From Sphingomonas sp. AOB5 (lineage in GTDB: Bacteria > Pseudomonadota > Alphaproteobacteria > Sphingomonadales > Sphingomonadaceae), in assembly GCF_029433115.1 (NCBI RefSeq), contig NZ_JARNTV010000002.1, forward strand, positions 62,001-126,000: a DNA stretch of 64,000 nt, read 5' to 3'. A program made the translations under genes and the position numbers. How positions within the stretch are numbered: position 1 is the stretch's first letter; every line of letters begins with the position of its first letter. The notes beneath the pieces were generated by a model that was not told the DNA's origin, made no database searches, and was given only the letters and a program-made list of their open reading frames with translations. Below are positions 44,410-50,249 of the stretch, piece by piece.

Positions 44410-45054
44410 TCAGGGTTCGCGCCGGTCCCTCTTTTCCGATGCCTTGCGATCTTCCGTACCCTTCGGCCGCACAGGCTCGAGCACAAGCGTCTTGCCTTCG
44501 ACGCGCCAGGATTGCAGCCGCGACAGGAAATTCATCCCCAGCACGTCGAACTCGCCAAAGCTGCGCGAAACGACGATCTCGAGATCGCGGGTCTTCAGCG
44601 GGCCGACTTCGATCAGGTCCAGACGCGTGCTGCGCGCCTGAACCGATCCATTGGCGGTCTCGATCACCACCGGCAGGCCGCCTGGGCCGATACCGGCCTC
44701 ACGCGCGGTCGTTTCGGACAATGCTGTGACCGTCGCGCCGCTATCGACCAGCATGCGGCGTTCGACGCCGTTGATCGTGACCTTGGCCCAGAAATGCCCG
44801 TCACGGCTCATCGGGATTCGAACGGTGTCGCCTTCGACCTTTTGCTGCTCATAGCCGAGCCGATCCGACGCGCGTGCCAGGATCGCGGCGATTTCCTGCT
44901 GATGGCTGAAGGCAATGAACGCGATGATGCCGATGGCGGCCCAACTGATCAGGCTCTGGATCAAGCCACGCACGGTAAAGCCGCCGGCGGCTAACCGCGC
45001 CGCGATCAACAGCGCAACCGCCGCGACGATCAACATAAGTAGCTGATTATTCAT
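44410..45054 (-). CDS. Membrane-anchored retropepsin-like aspartic protease (TIGR02281 type)
   Basis: 214 residues with two N-terminal helices (about 4-25 and 33-52) and a periplasmic-side domain of about 130 residues. The catalytic motif is RRMLVDSGATVTALSETTA, with a following GLPVVIETANGSVQA and the C-terminal LDVLGMNFLSRLQSWRVEGKTLVL. This matches the clan AA TIGR02281 family common in alphaproteobacteria, of unknown substrate. Its N-terminal membrane module resembles the protein encoded just upstream. Confidence 0.88.
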   Translation of the reverse strand: MNNQLLMLIVAAVALLIAARLAAGGFTVRGLIQSLISWAAIGIIAFIAFSHQQEIAAILARASDRLGYEQQKVEGDTVRIPMSRDGHFWAKVTINGVERRMLVDSGATVTALSETTAREAGIGPGGLPVVIETANGSVQARSTRLDLIEVGPLKTRDLEIVVSRSFGEFDVLGMNFLSRLQSWRVEGKTLVLEPVRPKGTEDRKASEKRDRREP

Positions 45055-46142: not shown

Positions 46143-46918
46143 GCCAGCGTCTTCGAGAAGAGCTTGTGGAAATTGAGCCGCGTCGCGTCCGCCAGCGCAT
46201 CCGGATCCTCGCCGCGCAGATTTGCCAGGAAGCGGCAAGTATCCGCCACGAATGCCGGCTCGCCGGTCTTGCCCCTATGCGGCACCGGGGCGAGGAACGG
46301 CGCATCGGTTTCGATCAGCATCCGGTCCAGCGGCAGGCGCGCGCCGGTTTCCTGCAGGTCCTTCGCGTTCTTGAACGTCACGATGCCTGAGATCGAGATG
46401 TAGAGACCCAGTTCCAGCGCGATATCGGCGAACTCGCCACTGGCGGTGAAGCAGTGGATCACGCCGGGAAAGGCCCCCTTCCCCATCTCCTCGCGCAGCA
46501 TCGCCGCGGTGTCTTCCTCGGCATCGCGAGTGTGGATGACGATGGGAAGCTGCGTCTCGCGGCTGGCGGCGATGTGCGAACGGAAGCTGTGCCGCTGGCG
46601 GTCGCGGTCGCTATGGTCGTAATAATAATCGAGGCCGGTTTCGCCGATGCCGACGATACGCGGATGCGCAGCGCGAGCGACCAACTTCCCCGTGTCGACA
46701 TCGGGATGCTCGTCCGCCTCGTGCGGATGGATGCCAACCGTCGCCCACACGTCCGGCTCGCGCTCGGCCGCAGCCAGCACATCGTCCCACTCGCTTTCGC
46801 GCGTGGCGATGTTGAGCATCGCCTCCACACCGGTTTCGCGAGCACGCGCAATCACTTGCGCCTGTTCCTCGACAAGCCCTTTATAGTTCAGGTGGCAATG
46901 GCTGTCCGCTAACCTCAC
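46139..46918 (-). CDS. tatD: TatD family DNase/hydrolase
   Basis: 259 residues, TIM-barrel metal hydrolase. N-terminal metal site DSHCHLNYKG, catalytic Glu in GIGETGLDYYYDHSDR, His ligands in IVIHTRDAEED and GVIHCFTAS, and the C-terminal ETDAPFLAPVPHRG. Members degrade DNA 3' ends and D-aminoacyl products in vitro. The start overlaps the metG stop by four bases. Length is normal. Confidence 0.96.
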   Translation of the reverse strand: MRLADSHCHLNYKGLVEEQAQVIARARETGVEAMLNIATRESEWDDVLAAAEREPDVWATVGIHPHEADEHPDVDTGKLVARAAHPRIVGIGETGLDYYYDHSDRDRQRHSFRSHIAASRETQLPIVIHTRDAEEDTAAMLREEMGKGAFPGVIHCFTASGEFADIALELGLYISISGIVTFKNAKDLQETGARLPLDRMLIETDAPFLAPVPHRGKTGEPAFVADTCRFLANLRGEDPDALADATRLNFHKLFSKTLA

Positions 46919-48423
46919 GCTTCCTCGCTCTGCTGAAGCTCCAGACGCGGGAAGATGGGGCTTGGCGCCGCGATATTGAAGGCACCGGTCGCGGCATCAT
47001 GCCCGAGCTGCGCGATCAGCTTCGCCGACGAGCCCGGCACGACCGGCTCAATCGTGACGGCAAGACGGTGGATCGCCTTCAGAAGCGTGCCCAGGACGGC
47101 ATGCATCCGCTCCGGATCGGTCTTGCGCAGCGCCCAGGGCGCCTGCACGTCGATAAACGCGTTGCATGCGAAGACGCCGGTCATCCAGCTTTCGATGCCC
47201 TGGCTCAGCGCCAGTTCCTCGAACGCCTTCGCAAAACCGTCACAGGCGGCATCCACGTCGGCAATCAGCGCATCGTCGGCCGTATCCGCCCTGCCCGCTT
47301 CCACCTTGCCTTCGAGATTCTTGGCGATGAAGGCGCAGACCCGCTGGGCCAGATTGCCGAAACTGTTCGACAGGTCGGCATTGGCACGCGTCACGATGGC
47401 TTCGTCGCTGAAGGTGCCGTCATTGCCGAAGCTGACGTCACGCAGCAGGAAATAGCGCAGCGCATCGACGCCATAGAGCTCGGCCAGTTCCATCGGATCG
47501 ACCACGTTGCCGACCGACTTCGACATTTTCTCCCCACGATTGAGCAGGAATCCATGGCCGAAGACCTGTTTCGGCAACGGCAGCTTCGCCGACATCAGGA
47601 AGGCGGGCCAGTAGACGGTGTGGAAGCGAACGATGTCCTTGCCGATCAGGTGTAGGTCCGCCGGCCAATATTTGTCGAACATCGCGGAATCGTCGGGGTA
47701 GCCGACGCCGGTGATGTAGTTGGTCAGCGCATCGACCCACACATACATGACGTGCCCCGGCGATCCCGGCACCGGCACGCCCCAGTCGAAGCTGGTGCGG
47801 CTGACCGACAGATCGGTGAGCCCCCCCTCGACGAAGCGCAGTATCTCGTTGCGACGCGATTCCGGGCGGATGAAGTCGGGCTGGCTCGCGAACAGATCGA
47901 GCAAAGGCTGCTGATATTTGGACAGGCGGAAGAACCAGGTCTCTTCCGCGGTCCACTCCACCGGCGTGCCTTGGGGCGACAGCTTCTCGCCACCCTCGCC
48001 TTCGACCAGCTCCTTTTCCTCGTAAAAGGCTTCGTCGCGAACCGAATACCAGCCCTCATAGCGATCGAGATACAGGTCGCCATTGGCTTCCATCGCCTTC
48101 CAGATCGCCTGGCTGGCGGCATAGTGATCGGGTTCGACGGTACGGATGAAACGATCGCACGAAATATCGAGCTTGTCCGCCATCTCATGGAAATAGCCGG
48201 ACATTTCGTCGGCGAGCGCGCGTACTTCGACGCCGCGGTCACGCGCGGTCTTGACCATTTTCAGGCCATGCTCGTCGGTGCCGGTCTGGAAGCGGACGTC
48301 GCGACCCTGCTGACGCTGGAACCGCGCGATCGCGTCGGCCGCGATCATCTCGTAGGCGTGACCGATATGCGGGCGGCCATTCGGATAGTGAATGGCGGTG
48401 GTGATGTAATAAGGCCGGGACAT
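46915..48423 (-). CDS. metG: Methionyl-tRNA synthetase
   Basis: 502 residues, class I synthetase of the short type without the C-terminal tRNA-binding extension. HIGH motif in YPNGRPHIGHAYEM and KMSKS in NRGEKMSKSVGNVVDP. The zinc knuckle cysteines of the E. coli form are missing from the insertion, as in the one-domain alphaproteobacterial type. Followed without gap by tatD and the MBL gene. Confidence 0.97.
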   Translation of the reverse strand: MSRPYYITTAIHYPNGRPHIGHAYEMIAADAIARFQRQQGRDVRFQTGTDEHGLKMVKTARDRGVEVRALADEMSGYFHEMADKLDISCDRFIRTVEPDHYAASQAIWKAMEANGDLYLDRYEGWYSVRDEAFYEEKELVEGEGGEKLSPQGTPVEWTAEETWFFRLSKYQQPLLDLFASQPDFIRPESRRNEILRFVEGGLTDLSVSRTSFDWGVPVPGSPGHVMYVWVDALTNYITGVGYPDDSAMFDKYWPADLHLIGKDIVRFHTVYWPAFLMSAKLPLPKQVFGHGFLLNRGEKMSKSVGNVVDPMELAELYGVDALRYFLLRDVSFGNDGTFSDEAIVTRANADLSNSFGNLAQRVCAFIAKNLEGKVEAGRADTADDALIADVDAACDGFAKAFEELALSQGIESWMTGVFACNAFIDVQAPWALRKTDPERMHAVLGTLLKAIHRLAVTIEPVVPGSSAKLIAQLGHDAATGAFNIAAPSPIFPRLELQQSEEA

Positions 48424-48463
48424 GGGGCGGCTTTAGGGGAATGCGCTCGCGCGGTGAAGGCCC

Positions 48464-48784
48464 TCAGCCGAACAGTTTGTCCGTGGCGAACGAATGTTCG
48501 GTCGCGGGGACGCCCGTCTTGCGTTCGTGGAGCTTTTTCACAGCCGCAGCGACCTCTTGGTCGATCGCCTTGCGCTTCTCCGGCGCCAGGCGGTCGTAAT
48601 CGGCTTCGTTCAGGTCATGCTTCTTGAGCACGGCTTCGCGGACCCGCTCTTCGGGGGTCTGGGCAGCGGCTTTCTTGAAGGATTCGAGGATCGTCTCGAA
48701 CGAAGCGGCGGAACTTGCCTTGGCCGACGGCCTGGAGCGAAGAGGATCGCTGGCCGCGCCAGTGCCGGAAATGCCGATGGTCAT
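48464..48784 (-). CDS. Small hypothetical protein, helical
   Basis: 106 residues. It begins MTIGISGTGAASDPLRSRPS with low-complexity Ser/Ala sequence, then a helical region (SFETILESFKKAAAQTPEERVREAVLKKHDLNEADYDRL, split here as one helix pair) and a lysine-rich end. No signal peptide or membrane span. The stretch ERVREAVLKKHDLNEADYDRLAPE recalls hypothetical proteins next to flagellar genes in sphingomonads, but no flagellar gene is near. It lies 40 bases upstream of metG. Confidence 0.65.
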   Translation of the reverse strand: MTIGISGTGAASDPLRSRPSAKASSAASFETILESFKKAAAQTPEERVREAVLKKHDLNEADYDRLAPEKRKAIDQEVAAAVKKLHERKTGVPATEHSFATDKLFG

Positions 48785-48854
48785 ACTCTCTCCCCTGTTC
48801 GGGAGAGACTTACCCCGGCACGGCTGAAATCGAGGTTAAAGCCCCCGAAGGCGA

Positions 48855-49190
48855 TCAATGCGCGTGGATTTCCTCGCTGCTGGTCAGCGCATAGCTGCGA
48901 TCGAGCTTCGCCCAGACCTGAACGCGGAACTTGCGGCCATCCTTCAGCACCATGACGAAGTTATAGTTCGTGCCGGCAACCACCTGCCGCTTGGCCTGCT
49001 CGATATGGTCGAGGTCCTCGACCGGAATCTGCAACTCGCCCAGCGCGAACTCGGCGGCCTTGGTGACCTCGGCGTCCACTTCGATGGCGCTGAAGCCGCC
49101 CACGACCGGACGCGGACGCGGCGCATCCTGGGCCTGTGCACCGGTGGCGAGGAAGACGGTGGCGGCAAGGCTGGCGAGAACAAGGCGCAT
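48855..49190 (-). CDS. Exported cystatin-like protein
   Basis: 111 residues from the ATG at 49190, preceded by GAGGAG ten bases upstream. The signal peptide is MRLVLASLAATVFLATGAQA-QD. The mature part carries the hallmarks of the cystatin fold: an N-terminal VVGGFSAIEVDAEV (conserved Gly pair, then the helix), the central QVVAGTNYNFVM (the Q-x-V-x-G inhibitory loop, residues 69-73) and an edge strand KFRVQVWAKLDRS. Cystatins inhibit papain-like cysteine proteases. Bacterial examples are few and little studied, so target and role are unknown. Confidence 0.8.
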   Translation of the reverse strand: MRLVLASLAATVFLATGAQAQDAPRPRPVVGGFSAIEVDAEVTKAAEFALGELQIPVEDLDHIEQAKRQVVAGTNYNFVMVLKDGRKFRVQVWAKLDRSYALTSSEEIHAH

Positions 49191-49265
49191 ATCGTTTCGG
49201 CTCCTCAATGGTGCTTCGCTTTGCGGGGGCTAGCCCGCTTTGTCGATACGCAAGCTGAACGAAAT

Positions 49266-50249
49266 TCAGCGCGCGCCGAGTTTCGCGATCAGCCCGCCCA
49301 TCTCGAACACGGTAGCCGTGGCATCGAGCGACAGTCCGAGCGCAGCGCCGGAAAGGTCGCGTGCGCTGGCATAGGCATCCAGCGCGGTGCGCAGCGGCTC
49401 GCCCGACAGGGGCCGGGCATGTTCTGCGATGAAGCTGGGCGCCCGTTCGAGGAACGCCTCGTAACGCGGCTGTGCAGCCTTGACGCCAAGCAGCTTGGCA
49501 AGACGGGTGCGGGTCGCGTTCGAAGGATCGCCGGTCTGCGCGATGCTGAGCATATCGGCCTCGATCGCGGCCAGATCGAGCCCGGCAAAGCCCAGCGCGC
49601 GGCCGGGGGAACCCTCCCCTGCCCGCACCAGAGCTTCGATCTCGCTCGCGGTCGCATCGGGCAACTGGTTGCGGAGGACGGAGGCGACGTCGCTCGACGC
49701 CAGCGGCTCGAACCGTAGCAAGCGGCAGCGCGAGCGGATCGTAGGCAACAGCCGGCCCGGCGCGTGGCTGACCAGCAGGAAGATCGTGCCCTGTGGCGGC
49801 TCCTCCAGCACCTTGAGCAGCGCGTTCGCGGCACCGGGGCGCTCCACCTCGTCGATCGAGTCGATCAAAACGACGCGGCGCTGCGACAGCGAAGGCTTGG
49901 TCGCGAAACTGGCGATCAGGCTGCGGATCTGCGCGATCGGGATCGAGCGGGCGAGACCCGCCTCCGGCTTGTCGGCATCCTTGGGCAGGCGCACCAGCTC
50001 GCGATAATCGGGATGCGAATGCGCTTCGAACAGATGCGAGGTCTGGCTGGTCAGCGGCACAGCCCAGCCGGGCTGCAACCGATCGGGTTCCGCCGCTTCG
50101 GCCAGCATGCGCAGCGCCGCCTTGCGCGCGAAACTGGCCTTGCCCACGCCCTCCGGCCCGGCCAGCAACCACGCATGATGCAGCGTGCCCGACGCCATGG
50201 CGGCGGCGAGCTGCGATTGTGCCGTTTCGTTGCCGATCAGGTCGGTCAT
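49266..50249 (-). CDS. holB: DNA polymerase III delta' subunit
   Basis: 327 residues from ATG (MTDLIGNETAQSQLAAAM). Clamp-loader subunit with P-loop GPEGVGKASFA and the region RRVVLIDSIDEVERPGAANALLKVLEEPPQGTIFLLVSHAPGRLLPTIRSRC, which ends in the SRC sensor-1 motif. The zinc-binding cysteines of E. coli delta' are absent, as is common in alphaproteobacteria. It starts seven bases after the dac stop; tmk, which usually precedes holB, is not here. Confidence 0.94.
   Translation of the reverse strand: MTDLIGNETAQSQLAAAMASGTLHHAWLLAGPEGVGKASFARKAALRMLAEAAEPDRLQPGWAVPLTSQTSHLFEAHSHPDYRELVRLPKDADKPEAGLARSIPIAQIRSLIASFATKPSLSQRRVVLIDSIDEVERPGAANALLKVLEEPPQGTIFLLVSHAPGRLLPTIRSRCRLLRFEPLASSDVASVLRNQLPDATASEIEALVRAGEGSPGRALGFAGLDLAAIEADMLSIAQTGDPSNATRTRLAKLLGVKAAQPRYEAFLERAPSFIAEHARPLSGEPLRTALDAYASARDLSGAALGLSLDATATVFEMGGLIAKLGAR

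Follow-up and report, generated by a model that had tools for sequence, protein, structure and literature searches.

Known cystatins and comparable inhibitors

To our knowledge, cystatins have been studied almost wholly in eukaryotes. The bacterial members closest to the protein described here are those that Kordis and Turk (2009; PMC2784779) described in silico from Vibrio, Photobacterium, Polaribacter, and Geobacter; in the accessible part of that article, the list contains no alphaproteobacterial cystatin or stefin, stefins are said to lack a signal peptide as a rule, and bacterial cystatins and stefins are taken most probably to target host proteases, while chagasins inhibit bacterial C1 enzymes. 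The window analyzed here (the whole 64,000-nucleotide stretch from Sphingomonas sp. AOB5) encodes a protein that resembles this set in family, motifs, and patchy distribution, and judging from its sequence, it is an addition to the known bacterial cystatins, coming from a class absent from the accessible 2009 list and having a changed second hairpin. The Vibrio, Photobacterium, and Geobacter relatives that we recovered share the motif pattern of the Kordis and Turk set, and the Geobacter cystatins at loci L081 and L091 keep a Pro-Trp pair that the window protein lacks. Among the papers listed in our search of the open literature, none was a study of bacterial cystatins later than 2009 or an inhibition test of one, a silence that counts for little since subscription papers lay mostly outside its scope; in the accessible part of a screen of bacterial protease inhibitors (PMC12620975), the word "cystatin" occurs in the reference list only. 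Ecotin, which the accessible part of PMC11977995 treats as an envelope inhibitor of foreign proteases, is comparable in the role we propose here but belongs to an unrelated family and targets serine proteases.

Among eukaryotic families, the phytocystatins (oryzacystatin, tarocystatin, potato multicystatin) are the best PDB matches by both sequence and profile and share Gly-Gly and QVVAG; potato multicystatin, tarocystatin, and a sesame phytocystatin are 17 to 26% identical to the window protein over the structural match. Neither the phytocystatins nor the window protein have disulfides, but phytocystatins carry Pro-Trp where the window protein has Leu-Asp, and the window gene is bacterial with a signal-like sequence of its own. 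Type 2 animal cystatins (chicken cystatin, cystatin C) share the fold and the N-terminal and first-hairpin contacts and are secreted, as the window protein appears to be when its N terminus is judged by eye; they differ in two disulfide bonds near the C terminus, whereas the window protein has neither cysteines nor Pro-Trp. Stefins (cystatin A/B) are likewise small and free of both disulfides and Pro-Trp, but as a rule they are cytosolic proteins without a signal peptide; the N terminus of the window protein, judged by eye, looks signal-like.

A cystatin gene in Sphingomonas sp. AOB5

The gene is a minus-strand open reading frame running from an ATG at 49190 to a stop at 48855 (48855 to 49190 with the stop codon; 111 amino acids) and coincides exactly with the frame that the initial annotation had described as a small exported protein with an N-terminal Gly pair and a QVVAG loop. 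Both motifs are indeed present, as Gly31-Gly32 (49095 to 49100, minus strand) and Q69-V-V-A-G73 (48972 to 48986, minus strand). A ribosome-binding-like GAGGAG can be read on the same strand at 49201 to 49206, 10 nt before the ATG, and no promoter-like site was found within 48400 to 49400. The N terminus, MRLVLASLAATVFLATGAQA followed by QDAP, resembles a Sec signal peptide by eye (residues 1 to 20, ending AQA before Q; 49131 to 49190, minus strand), which suggests that the protein is probably exported to the periplasm. The putative signal is followed by a short stretch rich in Pro, then VVGGF, a segment forming the helix, QVVAGTNY, and a further pair of strands. The 111 residues include no cysteines, and the protein is therefore without disulfides.

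Family assignment draws on several lines of evidence. In Pfam-A, the window protein matches PF00031 (Cystatin) with 23.9 bits (E 5e-5), above the cutoff of 22.2; it scores 22.6 bits in the whole-genome scan, and none of 14 control genomes has a match to this model. It reaches 24.0 bits with the SQAPI model PF16845, short of that model's cutoff of 31, and has no NCBIfam match up to E 1. A phmmer search of the PDB ranks plant cystatins first: a multicystatin reaches E 1.3e-4 as a complete chain, although each of its three stretches taken singly fails to pass, and oryzacystatin-I has E 3.7e-3. A profile of 71 domains (alignment A2, below) finds multicystatin best in the PDB (E 1.7e-31), along with plant, tick, and human cystatins and stefins. 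When the window protein is excluded, it receives 90.0 bits from the profile of the other 70 domains, whereas no shuffled version among 1,000 exceeds 8.4 bits with that profile. In a smaller alignment that includes the window protein (A1), every one of the 15 rows has a PF00031 match with an E value no higher than 0.1. With profile, structure model, and conserved inhibitory elements in agreement, we regard it as practically certain that this frame encodes a genuine member of the cystatin family (Pfam PF00031, MEROPS I25), as the initial annotation had proposed.

Predicted fold and inhibitory contacts

An AlphaFold2 model built with the 71-sequence alignment has a mean pLDDT of 87, with values of 94 to 98 in ten-residue blocks from residue 31 to residue 110; a model from the single sequence was of low quality (pLDDT 51) and was discarded. 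The model has one helix (residues 40 to 52) followed by four strands (60 to 71, 73 to 82, 87 to 94, and 100 to 108), that is, the single helix and antiparallel beta sheet of the cystatin fold. By VIA-align, Z scores to the cystatins listed range from 9.8 to 12.3, with cystatin F at the top (12.3), tarocystatin in complex with papain at 11.2, and stefin B with papain at 10.1. Chicken cystatin (1cew), the comparison put forward in the initial annotation, aligns at Z 11.0 with an rmsd of 2.0 over 77 residues, and the model is cystatin-like by this measure. Foldseek returns the same families with probability 1.00 and weak E values (best, 2.2e-3). Monellin variants (Z 10.2 to 11.3) and latexin (10.8) score as high by VIA-align and share the fold without the function, so the fold alone is no proof of inhibition.

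In the model, QVVAG lies at the turn of the hairpin between strands 60 to 71 and 73 to 82. Given this placement and the likeness to solved cystatins, the loop, whose exposure the initial annotation had named as a check, is predicted to be solvent-exposed.

The contact elements were compared in alignment A2, which comprises the window protein and 70 domains (25 to 48% identical to it) from 69 of the 79 bacterial loci listed below; near-copies, loci cut short, and loci with an internal stop were left out (L036, L037, L045, L062, L065, L077, L087, L097, L102, and L104). Gly31 occurs in every domain (71 of 71), and Gly32 is missing only from L090 (70 of 71). QVVAG is invariant in A2 by construction, since the underlying collection scan used the pattern QVVAG[MTI]NY with confirmation by tblastn. 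In a less biased set of 16 domains (10 found by profile and 6 more by BLAST), QV[VI]AG is present in 16/16 and Gly-Gly in 15/16, a second, partial copy in genome G114 (L010) being the exception. The second hairpin, K95-L96-D97-R98 (48897 to 48908, minus strand), stands at the place of the Pro-Trp of classical type 2 cystatins and phytocystatins and has Leu96-Asp97 instead; across A2, position 96 is Leu in 55/71 and position 97 is Asp in 36/71, and Pro-Trp is found in three domains, two from Geobacter (L081 and L091) and one verrucomicrobial (L079). The Gly and Q-x-V-x-G elements noted in the initial annotation are therefore complete, and the third cystatin contact, Pro-Trp, on which that annotation is silent, is lacking. 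Because stefins likewise have no Pro-Trp in this hairpin, its loss is compatible with inhibition.

Distribution among bacteria

Of 295 genomes from the genus, 13 gave a hit at E 0.01. Seven of these hits (L017 to L023, E 1e-3 to 5e-3) were discarded as false, since none of the seven carries Q[VIL][VI]AG in the matched-strand frames and their six-frame translations lack the paired Gly-Gly...QV[VI]AG, which leaves 6/295 with the window's own genome included. In an order-level sample, 9 of 296 genomes match PF00031 at E 0.01, seven of them above its cutoff, and a profile from A1 recovers the same nine, having been built partly from those hits. In a class-level sample, the A2 profile (E 1e-4) finds the window's own genome only (1/385). 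Plasmid and phage collections contain no cystatin match, and thus there is no sign in them of a mobile vector.

Beyond these samples, scanning a named genome collection with the single protein gave 334 pattern matches, none confirmed; the alignment-based scan did find relatives, with at least 97 candidate stretches passing and at least 79 loci kept, so that bacterial homologues of the kind the initial annotation suggested looking for do exist. Represented among the loci listed are Sphingomonas, Novosphingobium, Asticcacaulis, Thiothrix, Vibrio, Photobacterium, Geobacter, Verrucomicrobia, Planctomycetota, Acidobacteriota, Bacteroidota, and further groups; many of the sources are metagenome bins. 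By a crude pattern, 36 of the 79 loci listed have a lipobox-like motif ahead of Gly-Gly. A tree of the domains (without eukaryotic sequences) has support under 80 on 39 of 68 inner branches.

Eight longer relatives were scanned with Pfam; against the Cystatin cutoff of 22.2, L043 (20.8) and L101 (20.5) fall below, and L026 is just at 22.2. By Pfam, the cystatin domain is fused to a BNR sialidase-like domain in two Verrucomicrobia (L033, 5851 to 7293; L046, 5935 to 7260), to an amidohydrolase in Draconibacterium (L067, 3799 to 6240), and to a YscW-family domain in a sphingomonad bin (L026, 5875 to 6669). One idea is that the fused cystatin domains act as a shield against proteolysis. In Sphingomonas canadensis FWC47 (L030, 5450 to 6537), two cystatin genes lie side by side, one with a single domain and one with two, for three domains in all.

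Several other sphingomonads keep their cystatin at a second recurring place, near a gene that we take to be thiC. Six genomes (G114, G203, G065, G530, and the two that contain L051 and L053; loci L005, L009, L008, L015/L038, L051, and L053) have thiC followed by a cystatin on the same strand, with the Gly-Gly codons 105 to 766 nt past the last aligned thiC base, and at L030, L066, and L029, the cystatin comes 2.1 to 3.9 kb after thiC. A functional link to thiC was rejected, as the window gene lies elsewhere. A search for recurring neighbors with a crude ORF caller gave 15 clusters present in at least 4 of the 79 loci listed, the cystatins themselves among them: one cluster in nine loci, which presumably belongs to the large sensor-kinase superfamily, two mixed clusters in four loci each, one in six loci (Photobacterium plus one other), and the rest mostly from single lineages. 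None was accepted as a cystatin partner.

A slot filled in some relatives and empty in others

On the minus strand of the window, the gene order is dacC, holB, cystatin, a 106-amino-acid frame, and metG, where dacC, holB, and metG are the names we presume from the sequences. Comparison of gene order shows the slot to be bounded upstream by the holB-like gene (DNA polymerase III delta' subunit; 49266 to 50249, minus strand) and downstream by the 106-amino-acid frame (48464 to 48784, minus strand), which has no Pfam family, with the metG-like gene (methionyl-tRNA synthetase; 46915 to 48423, minus strand) as a further conserved flank. The same holB-metG slot holds orthologues in two other genomes, G047 (L012; 81% identity) and G453 (L013; 72%), whereas in G353 (L117) and G358 (L118), holB is followed by the 106-amino-acid frame and metG with no cystatin between. 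The slot is thus filled in three genomes and empty in two relatives, and other sphingomonad cystatins sit elsewhere. The 106-amino-acid frame was found in 11 of 101 genus genomes searched, the window's own included; for the remaining eight carriers, the stretch examined holds an ORF-like match alone, without holB or metG.

Across the three ortholog pairs, cystatin dN/dS is 0.16 to 0.23, a sign of purifying selection and hence of a maintained gene; faster evolution than in the neighboring genes was considered, yet with such values we make no claim of positive selection. Between the window genome and G453, the cystatins are 72% identical while metG is 98% identical, and between the window genome and G047, the cystatins are 81% identical and holB only 72%. 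This divergence out of step with the flanks may reflect allele exchange at the slot, a reading that rests on three genes. The 106-amino-acid frame also diverges quickly, with 44.6 to 57.0% identity in eight more distant genome pairs in which metG is 85.6 to 90.2% identical.

Proposed function and alternatives

We consider it fairly probable that the window protein is a periplasmic inhibitor directed against papain-family proteases of foreign origin. As a cystatin, it would inhibit papain-family (C1) cysteine proteases tightly and reversibly, its Gly-Gly segment and QVVAG hairpin wedging into the enzyme's active-site cleft. The targets would be foreign enzymes that reach the cell envelope from feeding protists, from small animals or plants, or from microbial competitors, and the protein would thus act as the cysteine-protease counterpart of ecotin, the periplasmic inhibitor of serine proteases. 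Such an outward-aimed inhibitor agrees with the suggestion in the accessible text of Kordis and Turk (PMC2784779). Several observations count against this reading: Pro-Trp is missing, 14 of 50 cystatin-bearing genomes have a C1 match, proteins with the cystatin fold can lose inhibition or switch target, as monellin, fetuin, and SQAPI did, monellin variants score as high by fold, and the fusions to secreted enzymes are not obviously explained by a free inhibitor.

Another explanation, which we judge rather unlikely, is that the cystatin is non-inhibitory now and serves as a binding or stabilizing domain that has kept the fold, as it might in the secreted-enzyme fusions. Both the fusions to BNR sialidase-like, amidohydrolase, and YscW-family domains and the presence of Pro-Trp in just 3/71 domains are in keeping with such a loss. 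Yet monellin, a non-inhibitor, retained only the fold, whereas here the Gly-Gly and QVVAG loops, which the fold alone should be able to dispense with, are among the most conserved columns (QVVAG partly by construction), and QV[VI]AG is kept throughout the less biased set.

The initial annotation had offered two possible roles, control of a resident NlpC/P60-like or papain-like enzyme and protection against foreign cysteine proteases. The first, in which the cystatin regulates a periplasmic NlpC/P60 peptidoglycan hydrolase or other clan CA cysteine peptidase of its own cell, appears improbable. Its periplasmic setting is likely, and peptidoglycan genes, which we take to be dacC-like and rlpA-like, along with a lytic transglycosylase gene (PF13406), lie a few genes upstream; the flanks, however, keep their order in two relatives without the cystatin, so this neighborhood is not a functional link. 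Among the three cysteine protease families searched (PF00112, PF00877, and PF06035, in genomes that may be incomplete), the window genome has no match to PF00112 (papain family) or PF06035 (C93), and its sole NlpC/P60 match is subthreshold (18.2 bits against a cutoff of 23; 19.2 for the ORF) and adjoins genes that look to us like those of a phage tail or gene transfer agent. C93 occurs in one of eight genus genomes, and that one, G353, is without the cystatin. In the order sample (n = 296), PF00112 occurs in 17 genomes and a cystatin in 9; one genome (G145) carries both, which is about the chance level (expectation near 0.5). Among 50 cystatin-bearing genomes, whose completeness is not given (reached through 50 of the 79 loci listed), PF00112 is absent from 36 and present in 14. 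As carriers so often lack PF00112, a resident papain-like target is not needed to keep the gene, and control of such an enzyme finds poor support.

Protection against foreign cysteine proteases fits better than control of a resident one, and because the cell shows no papain-family protease, we infer that the target is most likely foreign; a resident target that is not needed, probable export, and the conserved wedge together argue for an outward-aimed inhibitor. More tentatively, and possible rather than likely in our view, exported cystatins may be a widespread but sporadic bacterial defense. They would counter the papain-family proteases that grazers, hosts, and rivals bring, as ecotin does for serine proteases, through a two-contact wedge of Gly-Gly and QVVAG and a second hairpin in which Pro-Trp is mostly absent (often Leu-Asp-Gly). 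In Verrucomicrobia and Bacteroidota, the same domain would have become part of secreted enzymes and would protect them from proteolysis. If the window protein does block grazer or plant proteases, a cysteine-protease arm would join bacterial protease shields such as ecotin. A small soluble cystatin, a clean empty site in relatives, and a genome in which no papain-type enzyme was found make the targets of a bacterial cystatin directly testable.

Inhibition of aspartic proteases, as by the SQAPI of squash, is very improbable: the window does encode a retropepsin-like protein (44410 to 45054; PF13975, 80 bits), the SQAPI model gives 24 bits with the window protein, 14 of the 15 A1 rows match it at E 0.1 or better, and three of the eight longer relatives, all verrucomicrobial, pass its cutoff (36.0 to 37.3 bits), but the window protein itself stays below that cutoff and retains the cysteine-protease contacts QVVAG and Gly-Gly, and some similarity is expected anyway because SQAPI is a recruited plant cystatin, according to the accessible part of PMC2784779. 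The retropepsin-like aspartyl protease gene is on the minus strand, as is the cystatin gene about 4 kb away, and its product has a hydrophobic N terminus.
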